Source: Actinomycetota bacterium | Lineage (GTDB): Bacteria > Actinomycetota > UBA4738 > HRBIN12 | DNA: 64,000 nucleotides | Assembly: GCA_035640355.1 (NCBI GenBank) | Contig: DASQWI010000001.1 | Location: forward strand, 1 to 64,000 | Reading direction: 5' to 3' | In this document: one piece after another, positions 1,635-14,314 of the stretch | Numbering within the stretch: position 1 is the stretch's first letter | How the letters are laid out: every line of letters begins with the position of its first letter | Program-made: the position numbers and the translations under genes | The notes under the pieces: model-generated | What the model was told of the DNA's origin: nothing | Seen by the model: only the letters and a program-made list of their open reading frames with translations | Database searches by the model: none

Positions 1635-2501
1635 GTGTCTTCGGATGACGTTCGCGTTCAAGCCATTCGCGCCCTGGGCGGCGCGGGTCCGGTCATGCTG
1701 ATCGGCGGCGCCGAGGACAAGGTACGCGACAAGGTCGTCCTCTCTCGCTTCGCGAACGACGCAGGCGGCGCCCACGGACACGTCGTGGTGGTGTCCACCG
1801 CGTCGTCGCTGGGCGACCTGGCGTCCGAGCGTTACCGGGACCTCTTCGGCGGTCTCGGCATTGGTCGCGTCACCGGCCTTCGGCCCGAGGAGCGCGCGGA
1901 GGCGGACTCGCCGGAGGTCGCCCAGGCGCTCTCGGATGCCACGGCCGTTTTCCTTACCGGCGGCAACCAGCTGCGGCTGTCGTCCGTCGTAGCGGGCACG
2001 CGTCTCGCCGACGCGATCCAGCGCGCGCACGACCGTGGCGCGGTCCTCGCCGGGACGTCCGCGGGCGCGAGCGCGATGGCCGCGCACATGATGGCGTTCG
2101 GTCGCTCGGGTGAAACGCCCAAGACGCGGATGGCACAGCTCGCGGCGGGGCTCGGCATCGTTCAGGGCGTCGTGATCGACCAGCATTTCCAGCAGCGCGG
2201 TCGGTTCGGGCGCCTACTCGCGGTCGTCGCGCAGTCACCGTCGCTCGTCGGCATCGGCCTCGACGAGGACACGTGCGCCATCGTCCACGCCGATCGAACG
2301 ATAGAGGTCATCGGACGCGGCGCCGTGACGCTCATCGACGGCTCGCACGTGGTCACCGACGCGCACCAGGCGAAGGGTCACCGTCCGATCATGGTGTCGG
2401 GGGCCGTCGTGCATTCGCTTCCTGCCGGGACGTGGTTCGATCTGCGGGCGCGACGGCTGCTCGCGGGCGAGCCCGGCGTGGAACGCGAGGCGTCTGAGTG
2501 A
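1635..2501 (+). CDS. cphB: Cyanophycinase
   Basis: A 288-residue serine exopeptidase of family S51 that releases beta-Asp-Arg dipeptides from cyanophycin (multi-L-arginyl-poly-L-aspartate). The nucleophile elbow GTSAGAS places the catalytic serine at about residue 142. The preceding GGNQ (109-112) and the DQHF motif with His184 match the family active site. There is no secretion signal, so it should act on internal polymer. It is the first gene of the operon with cyanophycin synthetase; its TGA stop overlaps a GTG at 2498 that begins a chain of mini-cistrons leading to cphA. Length and motifs fit the family well. Confidence 0.93.
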   Translation: MSSDDVRVQAIRALGGAGPVMLIGGAEDKVRDKVVLSRFANDAGGAHGHVVVVSTASSLGDLASERYRDLFGGLGIGRVTGLRPEERAEADSPEVAQALSDATAVFLTGGNQLRLSSVVAGTRLADAIQRAHDRGAVLAGTSAGASAMAAHMMAFGRSGETPKTRMAQLAAGLGIVQGVVIDQHFQQRGRFGRLLAVVAQSPSLVGIGLDEDTCAIVHADRTIEVIGRGAVTLIDGSHVVTDAHQAKGHRPIMVSGAVVHSLPAGTWFDLRARRLLAGEPGVEREASE

Positions 2502-2555: not shown

Positions 2556-2592
2556 CCCCGCATCGACGGGGGCGCGGGGGCCCAAGAAGTGA
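2527..2592 (+). CDS. Mini-cistron B (21 codons) between cphB and cphA
   Basis: This begins at the GTG in repeat copy 1 that corresponds to the cphA start in copy 2. It encodes VSERERANVAPAS followed by TGARGPKK, and stops at 2590-2592, where TGA overlaps the cphA GTG start (GTGA, 2589-2592). Its first 12 residues (through PA) equal the cphA N-terminus apart from the initiator codon used. It is most easily explained as a duplicated cphA translation-initiation region; whether the peptide does anything is unknown. Confidence 0.35.
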   Translation: MSERERANVAPASTGARGPKK

Positions 2593-2617
2593 GCGAGCGG
2601 GAGCGAGCGAACGTGGC
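2568..2617 (+). repeat. Tandem repeat copy 2, containing the cphA start
   Basis: Second copy of the 50-base unit. The GTG start of cyanophycin synthetase at 2589 lies inside it, so the first nine codons of cphA are encoded by repeat sequence. Confidence 0.9.
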
Positions 2618-5495
2618 TCCTGCTTCCGGTAGCAAGACCGGTAGCAAGACGGGGACAAGGGCTGATCGGCAGCGGACCAAACGCGAGCCCGTCGCCGACA
2701 AACCGCCCCTCAAGGCCGATCTTCGGATCGTCCAGAAACAGGTCTTCCGCGGTCCGAACTACTGGAGCTACGAGCCCTGCGTCAGGCTCCTCGTCGACCT
2801 CGGCGTCCTGGAAGAGTGGCCCTCGAACACGATCGAGGGGTTCGTCGAGGGTCTGCTGGAGATGCTCCCGGGCGTCGGCGAGCATTCGTGCTCGCTGGGG
2901 CGGCGCGGCGGGTTCCGCGAGCGTCTGGCGGAGGGAACGTGGCTCGGCCATGTCGCCGAGCACGTCGCGATCGAGCTCCAGCGTGAGTCCGGCGCGCATG
3001 TCTATCGAGGCAAGACGCGGAGCGCCGGTGAACCCGGCCGGTACAACGTCATCTACGGGTACTGGGAGGAGCGCGTCGGCGTCGCGTCCGGTGAACTCGC
3101 GGTTCGGATCGTCAACCACCTGGTCGAACCCGAGGACGGGTTCGACTTCCTCGCAGAGCTCGAGAAGCTCATCCTGCTCGCCGAACGTCGCGCGTTCGGG
3201 CCGTCGACACAGGCGATCCTGGACGAAGCGGCCAGTCGACGCATCCCGTTCATCCGACTGAACGAACAGTCCCTCGTGCAGCTCGGATGGGGGAGGTACC
3301 AGCAGCGCATCCGGGCCACGATGACCTCGAAGACCTCCTCGCTCGCCGTCGACATCGCCGGCGACAAGGACATGACGACGCGCCTGCTCGCCGCGGCCGG
3401 TCTTCCGGTCCCGCGCGGCGAGATCGTTCGAACCGAGGACGGTGCCGTCGAGGCGGCGAACCGCATCGGCTTTCCCGCAGTGACGAAGCCGATCGACGGC
3501 AACCACGGTCGCGGCGTCGGCCTCGACCTCCGGACCGAGCACGACGTGCGTGAGGGGTTCGCCCGCGCCATCGAGGAATCACGGCGCGGGGAGGTCGTCG
3601 TCGAGAGCTACGTGACGGGCAACGACTACCGCGTGCTCGTCGTCGGCGGGCGGATGGTCGCCGTGGCACAACGCGTCCCCGCACACGTGATCGGCGACGG
3701 GACTCACACCGTCGATGAGCTCGTCGATGTCACGAACCAGGACCCGCGACGCGGGATCGGTCACGAGAAGGTGCTGACCAGGATCAAGGTCGACTCGCGC
3801 GCGGTCGACCTGGTGCGGAAGCAGGGGTACCAGATGGACGACGTCCCACCCGAGGGCGCCCTGGTCAAGCTGGCGGAGACGGGGAACATGTCGACCGGAG
3901 GGATCTCGATCGACCGCACGTGGGAGGCGCACGAGGAGAACATCGAGATCGCCGAGGAGGCGGCGCGCGTCGTCGGCCTCGACGTCGCCGGGATCGATTT
4001 TCTCGCACCCGACATCACGCAACCGGTCCGGGAGACCGGTGGCGCGATCGTCGAGGTGAACGCCGCACCGGGCTTCCGGATGCACACGCATCCCACCGAG
4101 GGCGAGCCGCAGTACGTCGCGAAGGACGTCGTCGACCTGCTGTTCCCACCCGGAACGCCGGCCCGCATCCCGATCGTCGCGGTGACGGGCTCGAACGGCA
4201 AGACCACGACCGTCCGGATGATCGCGCACATCTACAAGGGCATGGGACGTTCCGTCGGGTTCACCACGACCGATGGGATCTACATCGACGAGCGTCTCGT
4301 GAAGCGAGCCGACGCGTCGGGTCCGAAGTCCGCGCAGATGGTGCTGCAGAACCCGCGGGTCGATTTCGCCGTGTTCGAGACGGCGCGTGGTGGCATCCTC
4401 CGCGAGGGTCTGGGATACGGCGAGAACGACGTGGCGGTCGTGTTGAACGTGACCGGCGACCATCTCGGGCTCGGCGGGATCGAGACGATCGAGCAGCTCG
4501 CCGCCGTGAAGCAGGTGATCGTCGAGGCGGTTCCGAAGACCGGGTGGGCGGTGCTGAACGCAGATGATCCGCTCGTCGCCGAGATGCGCAAGGCGTGCAG
4601 CGGCAGCGTGATCCTGTTCTCGATGCAGGACGAGAACGAGCTCGTCGAGCGGTGGGTGCGACGGGGGCGCAAAGCGATCGTCCTGGAGAGAGGACCGCTC
4701 GGCGAGAAGATGGTGATCCGCGAGGGTCGGCGCACGATGCCCATCGCATGGGTCCACACGCTGCCGGCGACGTTCGAGGGCCGCGCGCGGATGATGGTGC
4801 AGAACGCGATGGCCGCGGCGGCGGCCGCGCACGCGGCAGGTGCGCACCTGCACGACATCCGACAGGGCCTGCGTTCGTTCACGACGTCGATCTACCAGGC
4901 GCCGGGGCGGCTGAACCTGTTCGACCTCGACGGGGTGAAGGTGTTGATCGACTACGCGCATAACGCGGCTGGGCTCGAGAAGCTCGGCGAGTTCGTCGAA
5001 CGTCTCACCTCGGACCCGAAACCGGGCCCCCGCGCCGGAGCGCCGTCGTGGAACGCGAACCTGCGCGTCGCCGTCGTGGCCACGGCGGGGGACCGGCGCG
5101 ACGAGGACATGCGCGAGCTCGGGCGGGTCGCCGGCCGGTACTTCGACGACATCATCGTGCGCGAGGACCGGAACACGCGCGGCCGGGCTCGCGGCGTGAC
5201 CGCCGAGCTGATCGTCGAGGGCGTTCGCGACGCCATGACTCAAGGCGCCCGCGCGGGCAACGTCGAGGTCGTCCCGGACGAGATGGACGCGACCCGCCGC
5301 GCGCTCGATCGCTCGCGTCCCGGTGACCTGGTCGTCCTGTGCGTCGACTACGCGACCGACGTGTACAAGGAGCTGGAGCGGAGGCGCTCGCTCGCGGCGC
5401 CGACCGTCATGCGCGCCGGCAACGGGCAGGACGGGTGGCAGGTGGCGGGGGGCGACCCTGATCTCGTCACCATCGTCGACGAGACCGGCCTTTGA
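2589..5495 (+). CDS. cphA: Cyanophycin synthetase
   Basis: A 968-residue polymerase that makes cyanophycin, a nitrogen and carbon store, by alternately adding Asp to the backbone and Arg to its side chain using ATP. The CphA N-domain (about 44-215) has the signature RGPNYWS. An ATP-grasp domain follows (about 255-520, GFPAVTKPIDGNHGRG). The Mur-ligase-like domain has its P-loop GSNGKTTT at about 534-541 and DYAHN near 788. Classical CphA is about 870-900 residues; the excess is a low-complexity N-terminal extension (residues 1-43, with GSKTG repeated) that begins inside a tandem repeat. The start GTG at 2589 overlaps the stop of mini-cistron B. Its own stop overlaps TTG 5492 of the next gene. 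Confidence 0.95.
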   Translation: MSERERANVAPASGSKTGSKTGTRADRQRTKREPVADKPPLKADLRIVQKQVFRGPNYWSYEPCVRLLVDLGVLEEWPSNTIEGFVEGLLEMLPGVGEHSCSLGRRGGFRERLAEGTWLGHVAEHVAIELQRESGAHVYRGKTRSAGEPGRYNVIYGYWEERVGVASGELAVRIVNHLVEPEDGFDFLAELEKLILLAERRAFGPSTQAILDEAASRRIPFIRLNEQSLVQLGWGRYQQRIRATMTSKTSSLAVDIAGDKDMTTRLLAAAGLPVPRGEIVRTEDGAVEAANRIGFPAVTKPIDGNHGRGVGLDLRTEHDVREGFARAIEESRRGEVVVESYVTGNDYRVLVVGGRMVAVAQRVPAHVIGDGTHTVDELVDVTNQDPRRGIGHEKVLTRIKVDSRAVDLVRKQGYQMDDVPPEGALVKLAETGNMSTGGISIDRTWEAHEENIEIAEEAARVVGLDVAGIDFLAPDITQPVRETGGAIVEVNAAPGFRMHTHPTEGEPQYVAKDVVDLLFPPGTPARIPIVAVTGSNGKTTTVRMIAHIYKGMGRSVGFTTTDGIYIDERLVKRADASGPKSAQMVLQNPRVDFAVFETARGGILREGLGYGENDVAVVLNVTGDHLGLGGIETIEQLAAVKQVIVEAVPKTGWAVLNADDPLVAEMRKACSGSVILFSMQDENELVERWVRRGRKAIVLERGPLGEKMVIREGRRTMPIAWVHTLPATFEGRARMMVQNAMAAAAAAHAAGAHLHDIRQGLRSFTTSIYQAPGRLNLFDLDGVKVLIDYAHNAAGLEKLGEFVERLTSDPKPGPRAGAPSWNANLRVAVVATAGDRRDEDMRELGRVAGRYFDDIIVREDRNTRGRARGVTAELIVEGVRDAMTQGARAGNVEVVPDEMDATRRALDRSRPGDLVVLCVDYATDVYKELERRRSLAAPTVMRAGNGQDGWQVAGGDPDLVTIVDETGL

Positions 5496-6031
5496 ACGAG
5501 CGTGGGTTCGGGCGAATGACGCGCCCGCGTTCGATCCTCGCCGGGATGCTGATGCTCGCGCTCACGGCGGTGTTCGTCGTGATCGGAATCGACGCCGTCC
5601 TCGACGCGTTCGTGACCGGGCGGCTCGATCGGGACACCTACCTCACCGCCGTCGGCTTCGGCCTCAACGTCGAGGAGATGAAGAACTTCCTCGCCATCGT
5701 CGGCATCGTGATCCTGGCGCTGTGCGTGGTGACCACGATCGAGGCGATCGGCGTGCTCGGAAGCCGCGAGGGCGTTCGTCACGCGGCCGTCGGAACCTTC
5801 CTCGTCTTCGCCGCGGTCACGTTGATCCTGTCGATCGCGGAGCTGATGTCCGAAGAGGTCGAGCGCAGCGTCGCCGTCGCGATCGTCATCGGCGTGGTCG
5901 ACGCGCTGATCGTCTACCTGCTTGTCCATGAACGCACGACCGCGGAGTTCGAACTGGCCGAGCGCGCACGCGACCGCGCGCGGTCGGTTCGCGTCGCGGA
6001 GCGTGCCGCGCGAAGGACCTCTCGAGCGTAG
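5492..6031 (+). CDS. Four-helix integral membrane protein, third gene of the cph operon
   Basis: A 179-residue protein with four hydrophobic helices (roughly residues 15-38, 64-88, 97-118 and 127-147 from the TTG start) and a basic, alanine/arginine-rich C-terminal tail predicted to be cytoplasmic. I do not recognise a named family. The TTG at 5492 overlaps the cphA stop (TTGA), suggesting translational coupling; ATG 5516 is the alternative start and would remove eight residues. Its position immediately behind cphA suggests a role connected to cyanophycin metabolism or its energy/solute supply, but no functional motif is visible. Confidence 0.65.
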   Translation: MNERGFGRMTRPRSILAGMLMLALTAVFVVIGIDAVLDAFVTGRLDRDTYLTAVGFGLNVEEMKNFLAIVGIVILALCVVTTIEAIGVLGSREGVRHAAVGTFLVFAAVTLILSIAELMSEEVERSVAVAIVIGVVDALIVYLLVHERTTAEFELAERARDRARSVRVAERAARRTSRA

Positions 6032-6066: not shown

Positions 6067-6106
6067 GGGGTACGCACAACGCTCGCTCCGCTCGCTGTGC
6101 TACCCC
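6067..6106. terminator. Hairpin between the two convergent cph-region operons
   Basis: ggggtacgcaca (6067-6078) pairs with tgtgctacccc (6096-6106) with one bulged base. The loop holds a GC-rich gctcgctccgctcgc stretch. It lies between the plus-strand operon end (6031) and contains the stop codon of the minus-strand redoxin (6100-6102). No U-tract is evident; a bidirectional terminator or transcript-end stabiliser is likely. Confidence 0.55.
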
Positions 6107-6666
6107 CCGGACCCCGGCTTCCACTTGATGCTGCAGCCGACGCTCGGTCGCTGGTCGGGTGGCACTTCCCGTCCCTCGAGCACGGCGTCGATCGCGGCGC
6201 GCAGATGCTCTCCCGTCACGGGGATCCCGTTGCGGGGCCGGCTGTCGTCGAGCTGCCCCCGGTACACGAGTTCCCGCGCCGGGCCGTACAGGAAGAAGTC
6301 GGGCGTACAGGCGGCGCCGAACGCCTTGGCCACCTCTTGCGATTCGTCGAAGAGGTACGGGAACCGGTAGCCCGCGAGCCGGGCTTCCTCGGCGAGGCTC
6401 TCCGGCGCGTCCTCGGGGTAGGTCTCCGGATCGTTCGCGCTGATCGCGACGAAGGCTACGTCCGCGTCCGAATAGTCGACGGCGAGGCGCGCGAGCTCCT
6501 CCCGAACGTGCGCGACGTACGGGCAGTGCCGACAGATGAACATGACGAGCAGGGCGCTGCTTCCGCCGACGTCGGCGTCGCTCACCGTCCTTCCGGTCGT
6601 CACGTCGGGTAACGCGAATGAAGGCAGCTGGCTGCCGAGCTCCGACATCGTGGAAGTCGCGGCCAT
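6100..6666 (-). CDS. Thioredoxin-fold peroxiredoxin-like (redoxin/AhpC-TSA) protein
   Basis: A 188-residue cytosolic thiol oxidoreductase. After the LPSFALPDV entry strand there is VMFICRHCPYV, a CxxC active site at C45/C48. Further family features are TPDFFLY (the cis-proline loop region) and a conserved C-terminal PSVGCSIKWKPG with C179. This matches the thioredoxin family in which the CxxC is followed by PYV and a third cysteine lies near the end. The start ATG has AAGGAG nine bases upstream. It lies 52 bases behind the CphA-like Mur ligase and is probably the last gene of that operon. No transmembrane anchor is present. The reductant and substrate are unknown. Confidence 0.82.
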   Translation of the reverse strand: MAATSTMSELGSQLPSFALPDVTTGRTVSDADVGGSSALLVMFICRHCPYVAHVREELARLAVDYSDADVAFVAISANDPETYPEDAPESLAEEARLAGYRFPYLFDESQEVAKAFGAACTPDFFLYGPARELVYRGQLDDSRPRNGIPVTGEHLRAAIDAVLEGREVPPDQRPSVGCSIKWKPGSGG

Positions 6667-6718: not shown

Positions 6719-8428
6719 CTACTTGGCGGCGCGTGAACGACGGGCCGCCGCCACGTGCCGCCGAACCATGGCAGGGGTGAGGCGCACGCCGCCGTTCTCC
6801 CCGAGCCATGCGAACACCTCCGGCCGCATTCCGAGCGCCGTCACCGCGACGACGTCGCCGCGGCGCGAGCGCTGCAGCATCGCCCGGAGTGCCGAGAGCT
6901 CGTCCGGATGGACGTCCACATCGTCCGCTCCAGCGTCGATCGCGCCGGCTCGAAGCCCGTCGATCACGTCCTCGCGTTCGCGACCGCGCAGGTAACGCAA
7001 CAGCTCCGCGATCACTACGTGGTCCGCGCCGCGAGCCGCGCGATACCCGACCCGATGCAAGATCTCGTCCGTTCGGTCACCGGCGGCGCAGATCGCCAGC
7101 CAGATCTCGGCGCCTGCGGGCCGGAGCCCGTCGCACAGCTCCAGGAGGCCCCGCATGCCGGCTTCGTTGTGCGCGTAGTCGACGACGACCGCGCGACCGT
7201 CGAGCTCGAACAGGTTCGCCCGTCCGGGATTCCGCTCGGGATCGAGGACGAACGAGCGGAGCCCCTGCACGACGGCCCGCTCGGGGAGCCCGATCCCGAG
7301 CGCGGCCGACGCCGCCTGCATCGCGTTCATCAGGTTCATGCTCGAGATGCCGGCGATCGTCACGGGGACGTCGACGAGCGGCACGAGCGCGCGCGAGTGC
7401 GAGCGTTCCAGCACCGTCATCCACCCGTCGAGCGGGACCGTGGCGCGTCCGCCCTCCACGAGCGTCTCGCGCACCGCGGGGTGATCGGGATCGAGCGAAC
7501 ACATCCAGATGCGGCCGCTCGCACCGCGCCGCATCGCGAGCACGCGCGGGTCGTCGGCGTTCAGGACGTCCCATCCCTCGGATCGCGTGATCTTCGTGAT
7601 CGTCGCCTTCACTTCGGCGAGCTGGTCGAGCGTTCGGATGCCGAGCAGTCCTAGATGATCGGCCGACACGTTCGTCACGATCGCCGCGTCGTTGTGCAAC
7701 ACCCCGATCCCGCGGAGCAGGATGCCGCCACGCGCCGTCTCCAGTACGGCAACGTCCGGCCGCTGTTCGAGGGCCTTCGCCGCGCCGCCGAACCCCGAGT
7801 AGTCGCCCTCCTCGATGAGCTCGTCGTCGCGGTACACGCCGTCGGTCGACGAATACGCGACGCGCTTGCCGGCCGACCGCACGAGGTGAGCCAGCAAGCG
7901 CACCGTCGTCGTCTTGCCGTTCGTCCCGGTGACCGACACGACCGGGATCATCGGGTCGGGCACGCTCGGTTCCTCGCCAGGTTCCGCGGCGGCGACCCGC
8001 TCGGCGACTTCGGCGAGCGTTCGGTCGAGTGACCGGCGTGCGTCGAACGTCGACAGCAGGCGCGCGATCTCGTTCCCGGCAGCCTCAGCCGTACCACGGC
8101 GTCGCCAGGGGAACGACACGACGATCTCGTCGGCCCCGGGCCCCGGCCGGCCTCGCACGGCCAGGCGGACGTTGCCCTCAGTGGCCAGCCGGCGCGCGAG
8201 CGTCGCCGCGAACCGGGCCACCGCGCGACGACGTTCCTCGGTATTCGGCCGGCCCGCCCGGCCGCGCGCCCGCGCAACCTCCAACGCTCGCACGAACCGA
8301 TCCTCGCGCACTGAAAGCCACGGGCCGACGCGCAGCTGCACTTTGATCGCGGGCCGTGGAAAGTACAGGTTCGGGCCCTCCAGCACCCGGAGCTCGACGA
8401 GCTCCGCGCGAGGCGTGGCCATCGTCAT
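6719..8428 (-). CDS. CphA-like Mur ligase lacking the ATP-grasp domain
   Basis: A 569-residue protein. Residues 10-150 look like a diverged CphA N-domain: VLEGPNLYFPRP parallels RGPNYWS of CphA, and a later GPGADEIVVSFPWRRRG parallels the equivalent stretch in the neighbouring cphA. The rest is the Mur-ligase module: P-loop GTNGKTTT (168-175), ETARGGIL, NVSADHLGLLGI, LNADDPRV and VDYAHNEAG (near residue 416), all closely matching cphA at 2589-5495. The ATP-grasp domain, which in CphA adds backbone Asp, is absent. Family knowledge therefore predicts an ATP-dependent amide ligase that could modify side chains but not polymerise. ATG 8428 overlaps the stop of the MFS gene (ATGA). Substrate unknown; a MurC/MurT-like role is a less likely alternative. 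Confidence 0.8.
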   Translation of the reverse strand: MTMATPRAELVELRVLEGPNLYFPRPAIKVQLRVGPWLSVREDRFVRALEVARARGRAGRPNTEERRRAVARFAATLARRLATEGNVRLAVRGRPGPGADEIVVSFPWRRRGTAEAAGNEIARLLSTFDARRSLDRTLAEVAERVAAAEPGEEPSVPDPMIPVVSVTGTNGKTTTVRLLAHLVRSAGKRVAYSSTDGVYRDDELIEEGDYSGFGGAAKALEQRPDVAVLETARGGILLRGIGVLHNDAAIVTNVSADHLGLLGIRTLDQLAEVKATITKITRSEGWDVLNADDPRVLAMRRGASGRIWMCSLDPDHPAVRETLVEGGRATVPLDGWMTVLERSHSRALVPLVDVPVTIAGISSMNLMNAMQAASAALGIGLPERAVVQGLRSFVLDPERNPGRANLFELDGRAVVVDYAHNEAGMRGLLELCDGLRPAGAEIWLAICAAGDRTDEILHRVGYRAARGADHVVIAELLRYLRGREREDVIDGLRAGAIDAGADDVDVHPDELSALRAMLQRSRRGDVVAVTALGMRPEVFAWLGENGGVRLTPAMVRRHVAAARRSRAAK

Positions 8429-9729
8429 GCGGTCTCGCCCGCCCGGTAGCGGCGAAACGACGGAACGAGCCACGCCAGGAGGCCGGCACCGACGATGCAC
8501 ATGAGTCCGCCGGAGACGACGGAAACCGTCGGCGAGAACGCCGACGCCACCAGCCCAGCCTCGAGGTCGCCGAGACGCGGACCGCCCGTGACGACCAAGA
8601 TGTGGATGCTCGACAGACGCCCGCGGAGCGAGTCCGGGACCGACAGCTGAAGGATGGTCGAGCGGAACACCGCCGAGATGACGTCGGCGGCGCCGGCGAG
8701 CGCCAGGAAGAACAGGCCGAGCCAGAGGTTCGCGCCGATGAGACCGAACGCGGCGATGCCCGCACCCCACAGCAAGACGGCCCACACGACCGCCATACCC
8801 TGGCGACGTACGTGCTTGACCCAGCCCGTAGTGAGCGCGCCGATCAGCGCGCCGACGGCAGGCGCTGCGAACAGCAGCCCGACGACGGCCGCTCTGCGAT
8901 GGAAGTGCGTTACGGCGAGGATGGGGAAGAGCGCCCGCGGCATGCCGAACACCATCGCCACGACGTCGATCACGAACGTGGACTGGAGGACGGGCCGCCG
9001 GCGCAGGTAGGCGAACCCCTCGACGACGGCGCGCCAACCCGTCGCGACCGTCTCGCCGCGTTCGGGCGGTATGGGATGGATCGAAACCGCCGCGGCCAGG
9101 ATCGCGAGGTACGTCACGAGGTCGATCGCGTACGCCCACGCGAGGCCGAACCTGCCGCCGGCCGCGATCACCACTCCCGCGAGCGCCGGACCGAGCAACG
9201 CCGTCGCGTTCCATGCGACCTGGTTCAGCGCCAGCGCTGAGGGAAGGAGGTCCCGACCTACCAGGCGCGGTGTCATGGCCGAACGGGTCGGAGAGTCGAT
9301 CGCGGAGAGCATGGCGATCAGGGCGATCGCCCCGTACACCAGGACTACGGGAGGCCGACCGGCGAGTGCGCCGATCAACAGGGTCGCCGACGCGACCATG
9401 AACCCCAACTGAGCGCCGATCAGGATCTTCCTGCGGTCGAATGCGTCGACGAAGGCGCCGGCGGCGAGCGTTCCGACGGCGAGCGCCGTCACGCCGACGA
9501 GCCCCGTGAGACCCACGGCCGCGGGCGACCGGGTGAGCCTGAAGACCTGGATGAACGTCGCGACGACGGTGAACTGATAGCCGACCTCGGAGATCGCCAG
9601 CCCGAACCAGAGTCGTCGGAAGTCGGCCGAGGTACGGAGCGGCGAGATGTCGACGGCGACTCGGCGAACGGTTCGCCTCACTCGGGACCGTCTCGTCGAC
9701 GCGATCGGTTCGGGCGCCTCGGTCGACAT
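8425..9729 (-). CDS. MFS transporter, first gene of the Mur-ligase operon
   Basis: A 434-residue major facilitator with about twelve hydrophobic helices and a soluble N-terminal stretch of about 25 residues. Typical loops are visible: GAFVDAFDRRKILIGAQ between helices 2 and 3 (the DRR motif) and DSPTRSAMTPRLVGRD before the central loop. It resembles DHA3/enterobactin-exporter-like efflux carriers (MFS_3), but the substrate cannot be read. The gene starts at ATG 9729, six bases after TAGCGT on this strand, and its stop overlaps the start of the CphA-like Mur ligase. The coupling suggests that transport of a precursor or product of that ligase is its task; this is inference. Confidence 0.85.
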   Translation of the reverse strand: MSTEAPEPIASTRRSRVRRTVRRVAVDISPLRTSADFRRLWFGLAISEVGYQFTVVATFIQVFRLTRSPAAVGLTGLVGVTALAVGTLAAGAFVDAFDRRKILIGAQLGFMVASATLLIGALAGRPPVVLVYGAIALIAMLSAIDSPTRSAMTPRLVGRDLLPSALALNQVAWNATALLGPALAGVVIAAGGRFGLAWAYAIDLVTYLAILAAAVSIHPIPPERGETVATGWRAVVEGFAYLRRRPVLQSTFVIDVVAMVFGMPRALFPILAVTHFHRRAAVVGLLFAAPAVGALIGALTTGWVKHVRRQGMAVVWAVLLWGAGIAAFGLIGANLWLGLFFLALAGAADVISAVFRSTILQLSVPDSLRGRLSSIHILVVTGGPRLGDLEAGLVASAFSPTVSVVSGGLMCIVGAGLLAWLVPSFRRYRAGETA

Positions 9730-9771: not shown

Positions 9772-12700
9772 CTAGAGCGCCGCGAGCGCAGCCGTCGTGC
9801 GTTCGATGAGCGGCATGACGCCCTTCGCCTCGTGCAGGGCGAGGGCGCGCGCGTACGAGGCGGCTGCCTCTGGCCGACGGCCTGCCGCGGCCAGTGCGTC
9901 GCCAAGGGAGCGGTGCGCCTCGCCTTCCTGCCAATCGCTGCGGCCTGCCAGATACGCAACGGCCTCGCTCGCGAGGCGCACGGCGTCGTCGTGCTGCCCC
10001 GCTGCGGAGAGCACGATCGACTCAGCGATTCGTACCAGCGATTGCGTGTCCTCGTCGTCGGGCGCGCCGGTTTTGCCTCCGATCCGTACGAACTCGAGCG
10101 CGTCCTCGCCTCTACCCTGGACCGCGAGGGCGGTAGCGATCAAACCAGCGAGCGTCGACAGGCGGTTCGTCTCGCCCATGGACTCAAACATCTCGTATCC
10201 CTCTCGCCACCGGATCTCTGCCTGGTCCACGTCGCCGGCGAGCCATCCGACGTAGCCGCCTACGAAGAACGGGTGGGCGCGGTTGCGAATGCCGAGCTCG
10301 AGCAGGAGCGACCGGGCTCGGGACACATCGGCGCGACCCCCTTCGAAGTCGCCAAACATCGCGCGCAGCCCACCGCGGGTCGCCAGGACCAACGATTCGG
10401 CGCATCGGTCGGGAAGGCCCGCGGCAAGCATCGCCTCGCATCGAGGCAGGGCGTCGGCCGCTGTGGTTCGACCCCAGAACAGGTCGATGGCCTCGTACCC
10501 CAGCGCGTCTGCCTCGACGCGAGCGTCCCCAGCGGCACGCGCGTATTCAGTTGCGCGTCGAAGCAACCCGAGGTCGGATCGGGGCGTGAGCCATTGGACC
10601 TCGATCAGCGCCTGAGCCGCTCCGCGGTGATCACCCAGCGCCTCGAACTCGCGTGCGAACGCCTGCGCGGCTTCTCGCTGCTGTTGCACCGTCGCGGAGG
10701 GGTCCGTCCGGGATCGGATGACGCTTCGGATGAATCCAGCACGCAGCGCCGCGAATCGGTTGCCGCTGCGCTGCGCCGCTTCTTCGATCTCGGCGGCGAG
10801 CTTCGCCGCCCGGGCCATCGACCCTTCGACGTGATACGCCTCGACCAGCTCGAGCCGGACGTCGTCGTCGTCCGGCATGAGCGACGCGGAACGTACGAGG
10901 AGGGAAATCGCCGTCGAGGCGTCCGAGCGAGAAAGCGCTGCCGTGCCGGCGGACGCGTACCGCCTCCCGGCGATCCGCGCGAGTTCCCGTTCGCGCTCCC
11001 CCGCGCCGCCGAGCTCCGTGCGATACCGGTACGCCCGCTCATAGTGGTGCGCGAGGATCGCGTCGAGCCCTCCGGGCGCGGCCGCGACCCGTAAGGCCAA
11101 CAACTCCGCGAAGCGTTCGTGGAGCTCGGCCCGCGTTTCCTTGGGCATGGACTCGTACGCGGCGTCTCGGATAAGCACGTGCCTGAACCGGAACGCGTCG
11201 TCGCCGGCGAACTCGGCGCGATCCGGACGGATGAATTCCTTCCGGACAAGCGATATCAGGCAGCGCCCAACGCTCGTTCGCATCTCCTGAGGAGCAAGCG
11301 CGGTCACGGTGCCGGTGTGGAACAGCCTTCCCTCCACCGCGCCGCGCTCGATGACTGTGCGCTCTTCCGAACCGAGGCGATCCAGACGCGCCGCGATTAG
11401 CGCTTGGATCGTCGACGGCACCGTGATGTCGGACACGTCGCCGGTCGCGACCCACCGGCCGTCGTCGCGGAGGAGCACACCGTCGTCGATCAGCACGCCG
11501 AGCATCTCCTCGACGAACAGTGGGTTGCCCTCGGCGGCCGTGGTGATCCGGTCGCGCATACCCGCCGCGAGCTCCGCGCTGCCGAGCAGGTTGTCGACCA
11601 GCAGGTCGGAGTCTGCCGATGCGAGCGGCTCGAGGGAGATCGACGTCGCATTGGGCCTACCGCTTCCCCACGTCGGCCGGGCGTCTAGAAGTTCGGGCCT
11701 CGCCGTACAGAGAAAGACGATCGACGCCGCCCTGGACCAATCGACCACCTGCTCGATCAAGTCGAGCATCGTCGGCTCGGCCCAATGGATATCGTCGATC
11801 ACCAGCGCGAGAGGACGCTCCGCGGCGACGCGCTCGAACAGCTTTCGGACGGCCCAGAACGCATCGGTGAGAGCGACTGGTCCTGGCGACAGGCCGAGTA
11901 GCCCCGCGACCCGTGCGAGGACGACGTCGGCCTCGTCCGCTCCCACGAGCGCGGCGCGAAGGCCTGCCACGATCATGTCGCTCGGGGCCCCCTCCGGCAC
12001 CTGTGCGATCGACCGCGCGATCTCGCTCAGCGGCCAGAACGTCATGCCCTCGCCGTAGGAGAGACAACGGCCGACGTGTGTCGAGGCCCGATCCGAGATC
12101 TCTCGAGCGAACTCCCGAACCAATCGCGACTTGCCCACTCCTGGCGACGCGATGACGGTCACGAGGGAGCACGTCCGCTCCTGCACCGACGTGTTGAACG
12201 CATCGAGGAGCATCCGGAGATGCCGTTCCCGACCGACCATCGGCGACTCGAGGGATCGCTCGCGTCCGGCGGCACCGGCGCGAACGCCCATCAGCCGGTG
12301 GGCCCGCACCGGCTCGGACTTGCCCTTCAGCTCCAACGCCTCGAGCAGCTCCGCCTCGACCGCGTCCCGGACGAGCGCGTGCGTCGACGCGCCGATCAGG
12401 ATCTCGCCGGGATCCGCCGACTGCTCGAGACGGGCGGCGACGTTCACGGTGTCGCCGGTCACGAGCCGCTCGCCCGAGGATGCGTCACCGCTCGCGACGA
12501 CCTCGCCGGTCGCGATGCCGGTGCGCGTAAGGATCGTGACGCCACGATCCCGCTCGAGCTCCGCGTTCAGCGCCTCGAGGGCACTGCGCATCTCGGCGGC
12601 AGCGCGCACCGCGCGAAGGGCGTCGTCCTCGTGCACCTGCGGGATGCCGAATACGGCCATTACCGCGTCACCGATGAACTTCTCGACTACGCCTCCGTGG

Positions 12701-12930
12701 CGCTCGATCACCACACGCATGGCGTCGAAGTACCGCGCCATCACGCGTCGAAGCGTCTCCGGATCCAGGCGCTCGCCGAGGCTCGTGGAGCCCGTTACGT
12801 CGGTGAAGACGACGGTGACGATCTTCCGCGTCTCATGGACCGGTTCCGCCTCGCCGAGCGGCGTCGCGCAGAACTGGCAGAAGCGAGCCTCGTCGGAGTT
12901 CTCGCGGCCGCAGCTCGGACAGGCGCGCAC
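9772..12930 (-). CDS. Adenylate/guanylate cyclase with zinc ribbon, AAA ATPase and TPR-like repeats
   Basis: A 1052-residue multi-domain regulator. It starts with a zinc ribbon (CPSCG at residues 4-8 and CQFC about a dozen residues later). Then comes a class III nucleotidyl cyclase domain (about 37-215) with VVFTDVTGSTSL and VEKFIGDAVMAVFG, which carry both metal-binding aspartates. A STAND-type ATPase module follows: Walker A ASPGVGKSRLV near residue 265 and Walker B LALVIDDIHWAEP near 375. The C-terminal 450 residues are alpha-helical TPR-like repeats. There is no LuxR-type DNA-binding domain at the end, so it is probably a signalling cyclase gated by ATP or protein binding rather than a transcription factor. 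GTG 12930 is chosen because TACACT lies six bases upstream. Confidence 0.87.
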   Translation of the reverse strand: MRACPSCGRENSDEARFCQFCATPLGEAEPVHETRKIVTVVFTDVTGSTSLGERLDPETLRRVMARYFDAMRVVIERHGGVVEKFIGDAVMAVFGIPQVHEDDALRAVRAAAEMRSALEALNAELERDRGVTILTRTGIATGEVVASGDASSGERLVTGDTVNVAARLEQSADPGEILIGASTHALVRDAVEAELLEALELKGKSEPVRAHRLMGVRAGAAGRERSLESPMVGRERHLRMLLDAFNTSVQERTCSLVTVIASPGVGKSRLVREFAREISDRASTHVGRCLSYGEGMTFWPLSEIARSIAQVPEGAPSDMIVAGLRAALVGADEADVVLARVAGLLGLSPGPVALTDAFWAVRKLFERVAAERPLALVIDDIHWAEPTMLDLIEQVVDWSRAASIVFLCTARPELLDARPTWGSGRPNATSISLEPLASADSDLLVDNLLGSAELAAGMRDRITTAAEGNPLFVEEMLGVLIDDGVLLRDDGRWVATGDVSDITVPSTIQALIAARLDRLGSEERTVIERGAVEGRLFHTGTVTALAPQEMRTSVGRCLISLVRKEFIRPDRAEFAGDDAFRFRHVLIRDAAYESMPKETRAELHERFAELLALRVAAAPGGLDAILAHHYERAYRYRTELGGAGERERELARIAGRRYASAGTAALSRSDASTAISLLVRSASLMPDDDDVRLELVEAYHVEGSMARAAKLAAEIEEAAQRSGNRFAALRAGFIRSVIRSRTDPSATVQQQREAAQAFAREFEALGDHRGAAQALIEVQWLTPRSDLGLLRRATEYARAAGDARVEADALGYEAIDLFWGRTTAADALPRCEAMLAAGLPDRCAESLVLATRGGLRAMFGDFEGGRADVSRARSLLLELGIRNRAHPFFVGGYVGWLAGDVDQAEIRWREGYEMFESMGETNRLSTLAGLIATALAVQGRGEDALEFVRIGGKTGAPDDEDTQSLVRIAESIVLSAAGQHDDAVRLASEAVAYLAGRSDWQEGEAHRSLGDALAAAGRRPEAAASYARALALHEAKGVMPLIERTTAALAAL

Positions 12931-12936
12931 GGCGCG

Positions 12937-12942
12937 AGTGTA
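12937..12942 (-). promoter_or_regulatory. -10 box TACACT, leaderless start of the cyclase/AAA gene
   Basis: On the minus strand TACACT is followed by six bases and GTG 12930. This decides the start; the frame stays open upstream of it. Confidence 0.55.
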
Positions 12943-12976
12943 GGCCGAGGCGGACAGCCGAACGAGGGGACGAGTC

Positions 12977-14314
12977 TTACGCGACCGAGCCGAACGCCTC
13001 GTCGAGGATGTCCAGCCCCTCATCGAGCAGCGACTCCTCGATCGTGAGCGGTGGGAGCAGTCGGATCACGTTGTCGTACGTGCCCGCCTTGAGGATGACC
13101 ACGCCGTTCTCCAGGCAGGTCCGGACGATCGCGTTGCCGGTCTCGGCGTCGATCGGCTCTTTCGACTGCTGGTCTTTGACGAGCTCCATCGCCGTCATCA
13201 TCGCGCGGCCGCGAACGTCTCCGATCACGGTGTGACGCTCCTGCATCTGGCGGAGCCTCGAGAGCACGCGATCGCCGAGGGTCCTCGAGCGCTCGAGCAG
13301 GTTCTCGCGCTCGATCTGATCGAGCACCGCCAGCGAGGCAGCGGCCGCGACGGGGTTCCCGCCGTACGTGCCGCCGAGGCCGCCGACGTGCACGCTGTCC
13401 ATCGCGTCGGCGCGTCCGGTCACCGCACTGATCGGAAGTCCGCTGCCCAGCGACTTCGCGCTGGTGATGAGGTCCGGGACGACGTCCTCGTCCTCGATGG
13501 CGAACCATCGGCCGGCACGACCCATCCCGCTCTGGATCTCGTCGGAGATGAACAGGATGCCGTGCTGTGCGCAGATCTCGGCGAGACCTTTGAGAAACCC
13601 GGGCGCCGGGAACACGAACCCGCCCTCGCCCTGGACCGGTTCGACGATGACGGCGGCGATGTTCTCCTCGCCGATCACCTTGTGCATCTCGTCACGCGCG
13701 TAGGCGAGCGCCTCGCGCGCCGCGTTCTCCGGACCGGTGGGCCAGCGATAGGGGTAGGCGAACGGCAGACGGTAGATCTCGGGCGCGAACGGTCCCATGC
13801 CCTGCTTGTACGGCATGGACTTCGCGGTCAGGGACATCGCGAGCAACGTTCGCCCGTGGAACGCGTGGTCGAACGTCACGATGGCCTGCCGGCCGGTGAA
13901 CTTCCGGGCGATCTTCACCGCGTTCTCGACGGCCTCGGCCCCGGAGTTGGCGAACATCGTCTTCTTCTCGAAGTCGCCTGGCGCGAGCGCGTTCAGGCGT
14001 TCGGCGAGCTCGATGTAGGGCTCGTTCGCCGTGACGTGGAAGCACGTGTGCGTGTCTCGCTCGAGCTGCTCCTGCGCTGCGCGGACGACCTCCGGCGGCG
14101 TGTGTCCCACGTTCAGGACGGAGATGCCGGTGGCGAAGTCGATCAGCCGGTTGCCGTCGACGTCCTCGATGATGGCGCCCGACGCTCGCGCCGTGACGAT
14201 CGGATGGATGTTGAACACCGCCTGTGGCACGGCGGCCTTTCGTCGTTCGAACCACTCGCGCGACTTGGGTCCCGGGATCTCGGTGACGACCTTGCGCTCC
14301 TGCAGGATGTCCAC
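12977..14314 (-). CDS. gabT: 4-aminobutyrate aminotransferase (class III, PLP)
   Basis: A 445-residue PLP enzyme that transfers the amino group of GABA to 2-oxoglutarate, giving succinate semialdehyde and glutamate. Class III features are seen: NSGAEAVENAVKIAR (cofactor phosphate loop), FHGRTLLAMSLT, LFISDEIQSGMGR with the cofactor aspartate, and the Schiff-base lysine in TSAKSLGSGLP (about K287). The GTG start at 14314 has a strong GAGGAGGAGG ribosome site. The two aldehyde dehydrogenase genes that could take its product lie divergently about 660 bases away. Related omega-amine aminotransferases (5-aminovalerate, putrescine) cannot be excluded. Confidence 0.88.
   Translation of the reverse strand: MDILQERKVVTEIPGPKSREWFERRKAAVPQAVFNIHPIVTARASGAIIEDVDGNRLIDFATGISVLNVGHTPPEVVRAAQEQLERDTHTCFHVTANEPYIELAERLNALAPGDFEKKTMFANSGAEAVENAVKIARKFTGRQAIVTFDHAFHGRTLLAMSLTAKSMPYKQGMGPFAPEIYRLPFAYPYRWPTGPENAAREALAYARDEMHKVIGEENIAAVIVEPVQGEGGFVFPAPGFLKGLAEICAQHGILFISDEIQSGMGRAGRWFAIEDEDVVPDLITSAKSLGSGLPISAVTGRADAMDSVHVGGLGGTYGGNPVAAAASLAVLDQIERENLLERSRTLGDRVLSRLRQMQERHTVIGDVRGRAMMTAMELVKDQQSKEPIDAETGNAIVRTCLENGVVILKAGTYDNVIRLLPPLTIEESLLDEGLDILDEAFGSVA

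Follow-up and report, generated by a model that had tools for sequence, protein, structure and literature searches.

A gene on the minus strand (6719-8428) of the window, the 64,000-nucleotide stretch of actinobacterial DNA analysed here, encodes a stand-alone CphA-like ligase that has the N and Mur ligase (M) domains of cyanophycin synthetase and no ATP-grasp (G) domain, the part with which CphA adds aspartate to the backbone. Its relatives accompany cphA across the sampled Actinomycetota, and the ligase almost certainly serves cyanophycin metabolism. The best explanation overall, to which we assign a probability of about 0.45, is that it is a dedicated second ligase of cyanophycin metabolism with which a modified cyanophycin would be made. 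Cyanophycin is a bacterial nitrogen-storage polymer, and a single enzyme is described as carrying out its synthesis. A second, strictly co-inherited ligase in hundreds of genomes, culturable Nocardioides included, would point to an unrecognised step in this synthesis. The protein would also be a natural CphA-like enzyme cut to its N-M half, complementary to CphA2 with its G activity only, and might be used as a tool to produce cyanophycins of novel composition.

Domain architecture and family assignment

The open reading frame was confirmed from 8428 down to 6719, with a product of 569 residues. A Pfam scan found Mur_ligase_M and Mur_ligase_C above the cut-off and nothing else, without any match to an ATP-grasp domain. 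The M domain spans residues 154-548 (6785-7969, minus strand). The top PDB sequence matches were the M domains of four solved CphA1 enzymes (E 3e-66 to 1e-54), with MurE ranking well behind; residues 154-527 matched the M domain of Synechocystis CphA1 (PDB ID 7LG5) with an E value of 3e-66. The top NCBIfam model was cyanophycin synthetase (TIGR02068), matched with 353.7 bits, below the curated cut-off of 850, and covered only at positions 478-847 of 862. The earlier note had assigned residues 160-569 to the Mur half of CphA on the basis of four motifs, which were all found in order: GTNGKTTT (168-175), ETARGGIL (230-237), ADHLGLLGI (256-264) and VDYAHNEAG (416-424). Its statement that the ATP-grasp domain is missing agrees with both the Pfam scan and the confined NCBIfam match. 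The 569-residue product is a CphA N domain fused straight to a CphA M domain, as judged from Pfam, NCBIfam, PDB sequence matches, profile alignment and Foldseek.

An AlphaFold2 model of the whole ligase had a pLDDT of 93. In a Foldseek search of the PDB, it aligned with full-length cyanobacterial CphA1 over 874-882 columns with a TMq of 0.73-0.78, the G domain appearing as a gap; the best whole-chain overlay ran end to end along 7LGQ (TMq 0.78). The N-M arrangement of CphA is kept in this predicted structure. The ligase gene had a dN/dS of 0.15 relative to its counterpart in a congeneric genome (G001) and is under purifying selection.

Several other identities were rejected. MurT and MurC had been named as established enzymes with which the protein might be placed, but CphA proved to be the closest family in both the NCBIfam and the structure comparison. 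MurT scored 29 bits against a cut-off of 800, and MurC was rejected on its NCBIfam scores. Murein ligases of the MurE type scored 95-98 bits against cut-offs of 257-373, and the protein has a CphA-type N domain and the motif YLRGR. A frameshifted or truncated cphA pseudogene is contradicted by a mean column identity of 62% among 42 homologues, by the intact catalytic residues and by the dN/dS value. A recent duplicate of the adjacent cphA was rejected because the ligase clade is separate from all sampled CphA, including cyanobacterial and proteobacterial ones.

The N domain

Residues 1-153 (7970-8428, minus strand) form the N domain. Pfam PF18921, the CphA N domain, gave no match in this N-terminal region. 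An hhalign comparison of the N domains of 69 ligase relatives with 69 CphA N domains gave a colinear alignment of 142 columns with an E value of 1.8e-7 and a probability of 90%, relative to 0.75 for a reversed profile and 0.03-0.5 for ten column-shuffled profiles. The AlphaFold2 model of residues 1-153 had a pLDDT of 95, and its first 14 Foldseek matches in the PDB were all CphA1 or CphA2 (probability 0.99-1.00), the next match falling to 0.47. The homology to the CphA N domain is weaker than that of the M domain but real, given the profile E value against its controls and the PDB matches of the model. The N-terminal resemblance described in the earlier note is thereby upheld. The sequence GPNLYF (residues 18-23; 8360-8377, minus strand) is the counterpart in the alignment of the CphA GPNYWS loop, which packs against the M domain in CphA1 (PMC9262961).

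The HxxEH zinc peptidase motif is absent from the N domain of the ligase. In CphA, the Cx19HxxEH motif makes primers and is present in 83% of CphA1 (PMC9262961). HxxEH was found in none of the 69 ligase relatives, while Cx19HxxEH was found in all 66 CphA from the same loci. The zinc site C59/H79/E82/H83 of CphA is not conserved in the ligase family, and an invariant arginine (69/69; R72 at 8213-8215, minus strand) stands in place of the zinc ligand H79. Arginines of the primer-cutting cleft are nevertheless retained: R70, R100 and R102 of CphA are present in all 69 relatives as R68, R92 and R94. The N domain carries a mean net charge of +6.6 in the ligases versus -3.8 in the neighbouring CphA. 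The loss of the zinc ligands with retention of these arginines, the charge flip and the M-site changes described below suggest that the chain may be bound without being cut and that the substrate may have changed.

The active site of the M domain

We compared 69 ligase relatives with 70 CphA M domains. The following residues were identical in at least 95% of both groups (CphA/ligase numbering): K499/172, T500/173, T522/195, E558/230, D585/257, H586/258, K602/274, R731/403 and H748/420. The ligase family thus retains the lysine of the P-loop, the threonine and glutamate Mg ligands, the Asp-His pair, the lysine at the K602 site and the PGR arginine, and also R805/R807. The P-loop GTNGKTTT lies at 7904-7927 (minus strand), and its K172 corresponds to the catalytic Lys499 of TeCphA1 (PMC9427784). 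D257-H258 (7655-7660, minus strand) align with D585-H586 of SuCphA1, where the double mutant abolished M-domain activity (PMC9262961). It is very probable from these conserved residues that the ligase is an active ATP-dependent enzyme.

By contrast, several positions that are 97-100% conserved in CphA are replaced in the ligases: R566 by L, S542 by G, E607 by R or K, R715 by V, R778 by T or Q, D781 by L or I and E800 by K or L, while D801 is variable. E607 is among the M-domain residues contacting bound cyanophycin in CphA1 (PMC9262961). When aligned with the MurE of the same genome, the MurE donor motif DNPR corresponds to REDxxxRGR in CphA and to [AG][EH][LK]xxYLRGR in the ligases. The family signature YLRGR (residues 479-483; 6980-6994, minus strand) occupies this site, and its tyrosine and first arginine are invariant or nearly so across the family. 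The replacements at E800/D801 differ between ligase subclades (EL versus HK), and the residues at this site may not contact the donor directly.

Genomic neighbourhood

The canonical cyanophycin synthetase gene cphA (2589-5495, plus strand) encodes N, G and M domains with an intact HxxEH motif and scored 1169 bits against TIGR02068 (cut-off 850). It is preceded by the cyanophycinase gene cphB (1635-2501, plus strand), with 242 bits against TIGR02069 (cut-off 127). The ligase start overlaps (ATGA) an MFS exporter gene (8425-9729, minus strand), and an AhpC/TSA-type redoxin gene (6100-6666, minus strand) lies downstream of the ligase; both were named from Pfam, the exporter also from NCBIfam, and both were placed by locus comparison. 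This MFS-ligase-redoxin operon converges on the cphB-cphA operon, and the neighbourhood is as the earlier note had drawn it.

The same note had included the MFS protein and the redoxin in a possible peptide-export system, which is not supported, since neither gene is conserved beside the ligase in relatives. The MFS gene's place beside the ligase is limited to certain genera within the window's family, and that of the redoxin gene to the window's genus. A GABA aminotransferase and the MFS gene flank the ligase in part of this family; in Nocardioidaceae, the upstream flank holds FabG/FabI-like dehydrogenases (named by eye from translations), and in other relatives unrelated genes. Because they are lineage-specific, the MFS protein and the redoxin probably lie outside the core system.

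Some other features of the locus were observed. The MFS protein has 71% identity with its counterpart in the congeneric genome (dS 0.84), compared with 95% (dS 0.20) for the ligase and 97% (dS 0.15) for the GABA aminotransferase; such divergence between near-identical flanks looks like an allele replacement. A gene for a 1083-residue protein that has matches to zinc ribbon, guanylate cyclase, AAA ATPase and TPR families (9772-13023) lies between the MFS and GABA aminotransferase genes; it is missing in the congeneric genome, where the two are adjacent. A 179-residue protein with several hydrophobic stretches (5492-6031), whose gene overlaps the end of cphA, was seen only within the genus of the window. 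Upstream of cphB (316-1582) are genes for an OGG-like DNA glycosylase and for a 115-residue uncharacterised protein, and further genera of this family (L032, L048) have them at the same place.

Co-occurrence with cphA

A scan of genome contigs found 275 stretches encoding a relative of the ligase. The best 80 of these came mainly from Nocardioides, Marmoricola, Knoellia and uncultured Actinomycetota, with some records labelled Chloroflexi. In nearly all loci that were long enough, the ligase gene faces the cphA-cphB genes tail to tail, either abutting them or lying up to a few kb apart, and this position is constant despite unrelated flanks.

Among 397 genomes of the phylum, the ligase profile matched 16, and among 165 Nocardioidaceae it matched 93. 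A query built from the N and G parts of CphA alone, which is blind to the ligase, gave the same counts and the same listed genomes in both sets. The co-occurrence of ligase and cphA was therefore 16/16 and 93/93 (one of the latter being a divergent pair), although these counts are not phylogenetically independent, and shared descent contributes both to them and to the distance correlation given below. The best ligase-profile E value was far below the level reached by CphA alone in all matched genomes but one (G445). The CphA of that genome is 51% identical to that of the window, and a divergent 599-residue ligase with GANLYF, GDYSGP and YLRGR is encoded downstream on the same strand. Two genera (g255 and g261) contain a mix of genomes with both genes and genomes with neither, which implies that the pair was gained or lost together. 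In two cases in which the genes are not adjacent (G569 and G573), the genome still carries both. The earlier note had asked whether the gene would be absent beside cphA in relatives; instead, it adjoins or co-occurs with cphA. Chance adjacency is ruled out by this co-occurrence. Because the two genes are present together or not at all in the sampled actinobacterial genomes, the second ligase probably makes or handles cyanophycin.

Two other genes, named from translations, recur in Nocardioidaceae. In 17 loci, a gene for a cupin-like protein separates the ligase gene from cphA (e.g., L078, 10741-11106), and in about 46 loci, a SerB-like ACT/HAD phosphatase is encoded on the far side of cphB (e.g., L078, 15469-16740). 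A serB gene near cphA has likewise been reported for Tetrasphaera (PMC10687191).

Proposed function and alternative explanations

The N-M unit of the ligase is the part between which CphA1 holds the end of the chain. In our proposal, the dead N domain would act as a clamp that binds the polymer or a piece of it, and the M domain would use ATP to phosphorylate a chain carboxylate and then link that carboxylate to an amino acid through an isopeptide or amide bond. The ligase may add an amino acid other than arginine, or use a different carboxylate, and so yield a modified cyanophycin. Tentatively, we favour a chain-directed activity whose donor or site is not that of CphA, since four CphA residues near the presumed amino-acid site (E800, D801, D781 and R778; SuCphA1 numbers) have been exchanged, as has the chain contact E607, and the charge of the N domain has shifted from about -4 to +7. 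The donor assignment comes from alignment to MurE and CphA together with conservation. The earlier note had suggested that the protein adds arginine or another amino acid to cyanophycin or another acidic peptide: the CphA origin, the probable activity and the tie to cyanophycin stood, but arginine as the donor is disfavoured by the residue changes. Cyanophycin synthesis does not generally require the ligase, since the solved cyanobacterial and Acinetobacter CphA1 work alone and many plasmid-borne cphA genes have no partner on the same record. It is doubtful, yet conceivable, that Nocardioides, Knoellia, uncultured Actinomycetota and some Alphaproteobacteria, a large set of soil and sludge bacteria, store cyanophycin only in a form to which this ligase has added a further amino acid, so that two enzymes would make up the pathway; if so, this polymer would be a new natural biopolymer.

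Alternatively, the ligase might duplicate the chemistry of the CphA M domain, loading arginine (or lysine or ornithine) onto aspartate side chains as an auxiliary or repair enzyme for bare-aspartate chains. It shares the acceptor-side DxSG, ETARGG and DHLG and the PGR and RGR arginines with CphA, and some CphA enzymes are relaxed for the side-chain amino acid (PMC8050183). We consider this unlikely, however, because seven positions that are 97-100% conserved in the 70 CphA (R566, S542, E607, R778, D781, E800 and D801) are replaced and the neighbouring canonical CphA already has an intact M domain. Somewhat less likely still is a small-molecule ligase that, for example, makes or extends a beta-Asp dipeptide, which would either prime CphA or derive from beta-Asp-Arg, the product of cyanophycinase. 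In the window genome, which is 97% complete, we found no IaaA (PF01112) and no IadA above the cut-off, so the last step of cyanophycin breakdown, which would consume beta-Asp-Arg, lacks a standard enzyme there, as would suit such a ligase. However, the N domain is kept and conserved, and its known roles are chain binding and primer cutting; moreover, no primer enzyme is needed where all 66 CphA have Cx19HxxEH.

A mainly structural or regulatory role, with binding to CphA or to the granule, would also account for the N-M unit, the strict co-occurrence with CphA and the correlated distances. A scaffold would need none of the ATP, Mg and catalytic positions conserved throughout the family, and we regard this role as improbable. 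In the window, the ligase and MFS genes overlap (ATGA), and in the congeneric genome they are tightly coupled, which could be read as a peptide ligase with its own exporter, unrelated to cyanophycin and beside cphA by accident. Most relatives lack the MFS gene while cphA is always present, and the co-occurrence contradicts an accident, so this reading is very improbable. A dedicated second ligase that would modify cyanophycin remains our preferred explanation.

Other phyla and evolution

The actinobacterial ligases form a single clade with a support of 100, apart from CphA. The M-domain distances of ligase and CphA correlated with r 0.97 over 61 loci, in part because both track the species. 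In a plasmid collection, the alphaproteobacterial Ruegeria and Shinella carry co-directional cphB, cphA and a gene for a 'Mur ligase family protein', the gap from cphA to this third gene being 12-14 bases. This third protein scored higher with the window's ligase family than with CphA and shares the signature motifs, and it joined the actinobacterial ligases in the tree with modest support (84/52). Its N domain matched that of the actinobacterial ligases with an E value of 7e-5, versus 0.35 with CphA directly; we are less sure of CphA N-domain homology for this proteobacterial version. The cphA genes of Rhizobium, Mesorhizobium, Sphingobium, Deinococcus, Legionella and others in the same collection had no full-length partner on the same record.

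One record labelled Spirochaetaceae (L129) fell inside Actinomycetota in both the CphA and the ligase parts of the tree and is probably a mis-binned contig. 'Mur ligase family' genes of Deinococcus were rejected as family members, as their N part is long and CphA-like and their M motifs are of the CphA type; those on two plasmids (L152, 3684-6183; L153, 4023-6197) look like broken or G-domain-degenerate CphA. One such Deinococcus gene adjoins cphA, an isoaspartyl peptidase gene and cphB. In 2013, Adames et al. reportedly described a Ralstonia cphA', a second cphA still holding part of the ATP-grasp region; we weighed it as a possible instance of this gene and set it aside.

Comparison with known systems

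The ligase is homologous to CphA1 (TIGR02068; PDB IDs 7LG5/7LGQ and 7WAE) over the whole length of its N and M domains, in the same order, and shares the M-site residues for ATP, Mg and catalysis. It differs in lacking the G domain and the zinc site, in having [AG][EH][LK]xxYLRGR instead of REDxxxRGR, and in an N-domain charge of about +7 versus -4. Of the properties of CphA1, it has the N fold and the intact M domain, whereas it lacks the G domain and Cx19HxxEH and scores below the TIGR02068 cut-off. By sequence, it would resemble the M half of CphA1 in its working. CphA2 (PDB IDs 8FXH/8FXI) is likewise a reduced CphA paralogue with an N domain without HxxEH (PMC9262961). It is the mirror image of the ligase: in CphA2 the G domain is active but the P-loop and lid of the M site have been lost (PMC9427784), whereas the ligase lacks the G domain and keeps M intact. 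MurE shares the Mur ligase fold and chemistry (TMq 0.54 for the ligase model to 1E8C). However, MurE has its own N-terminal domain and DNPR, as opposed to the CphA-type N domain and YLRGR of the ligase, which scored 95-98 bits with MurE, below the curated cut-off, versus 354 with CphA.

No description of an N-M architecture without G was found in the open-access literature covered. Metagenome-assembled genomes of Tetrasphaera from sludge, also Actinomycetota, contain two cphA copies near cphB, in a neighbourhood with serB, of which the shorter was expressed less than the longer (PMC10687191). That paper treats the shorter gene as a cphA copy and leaves its domains undescribed. It may be the ligase gene, and Knoellia (Intrasporangiaceae) carries the pair (L079, L094).
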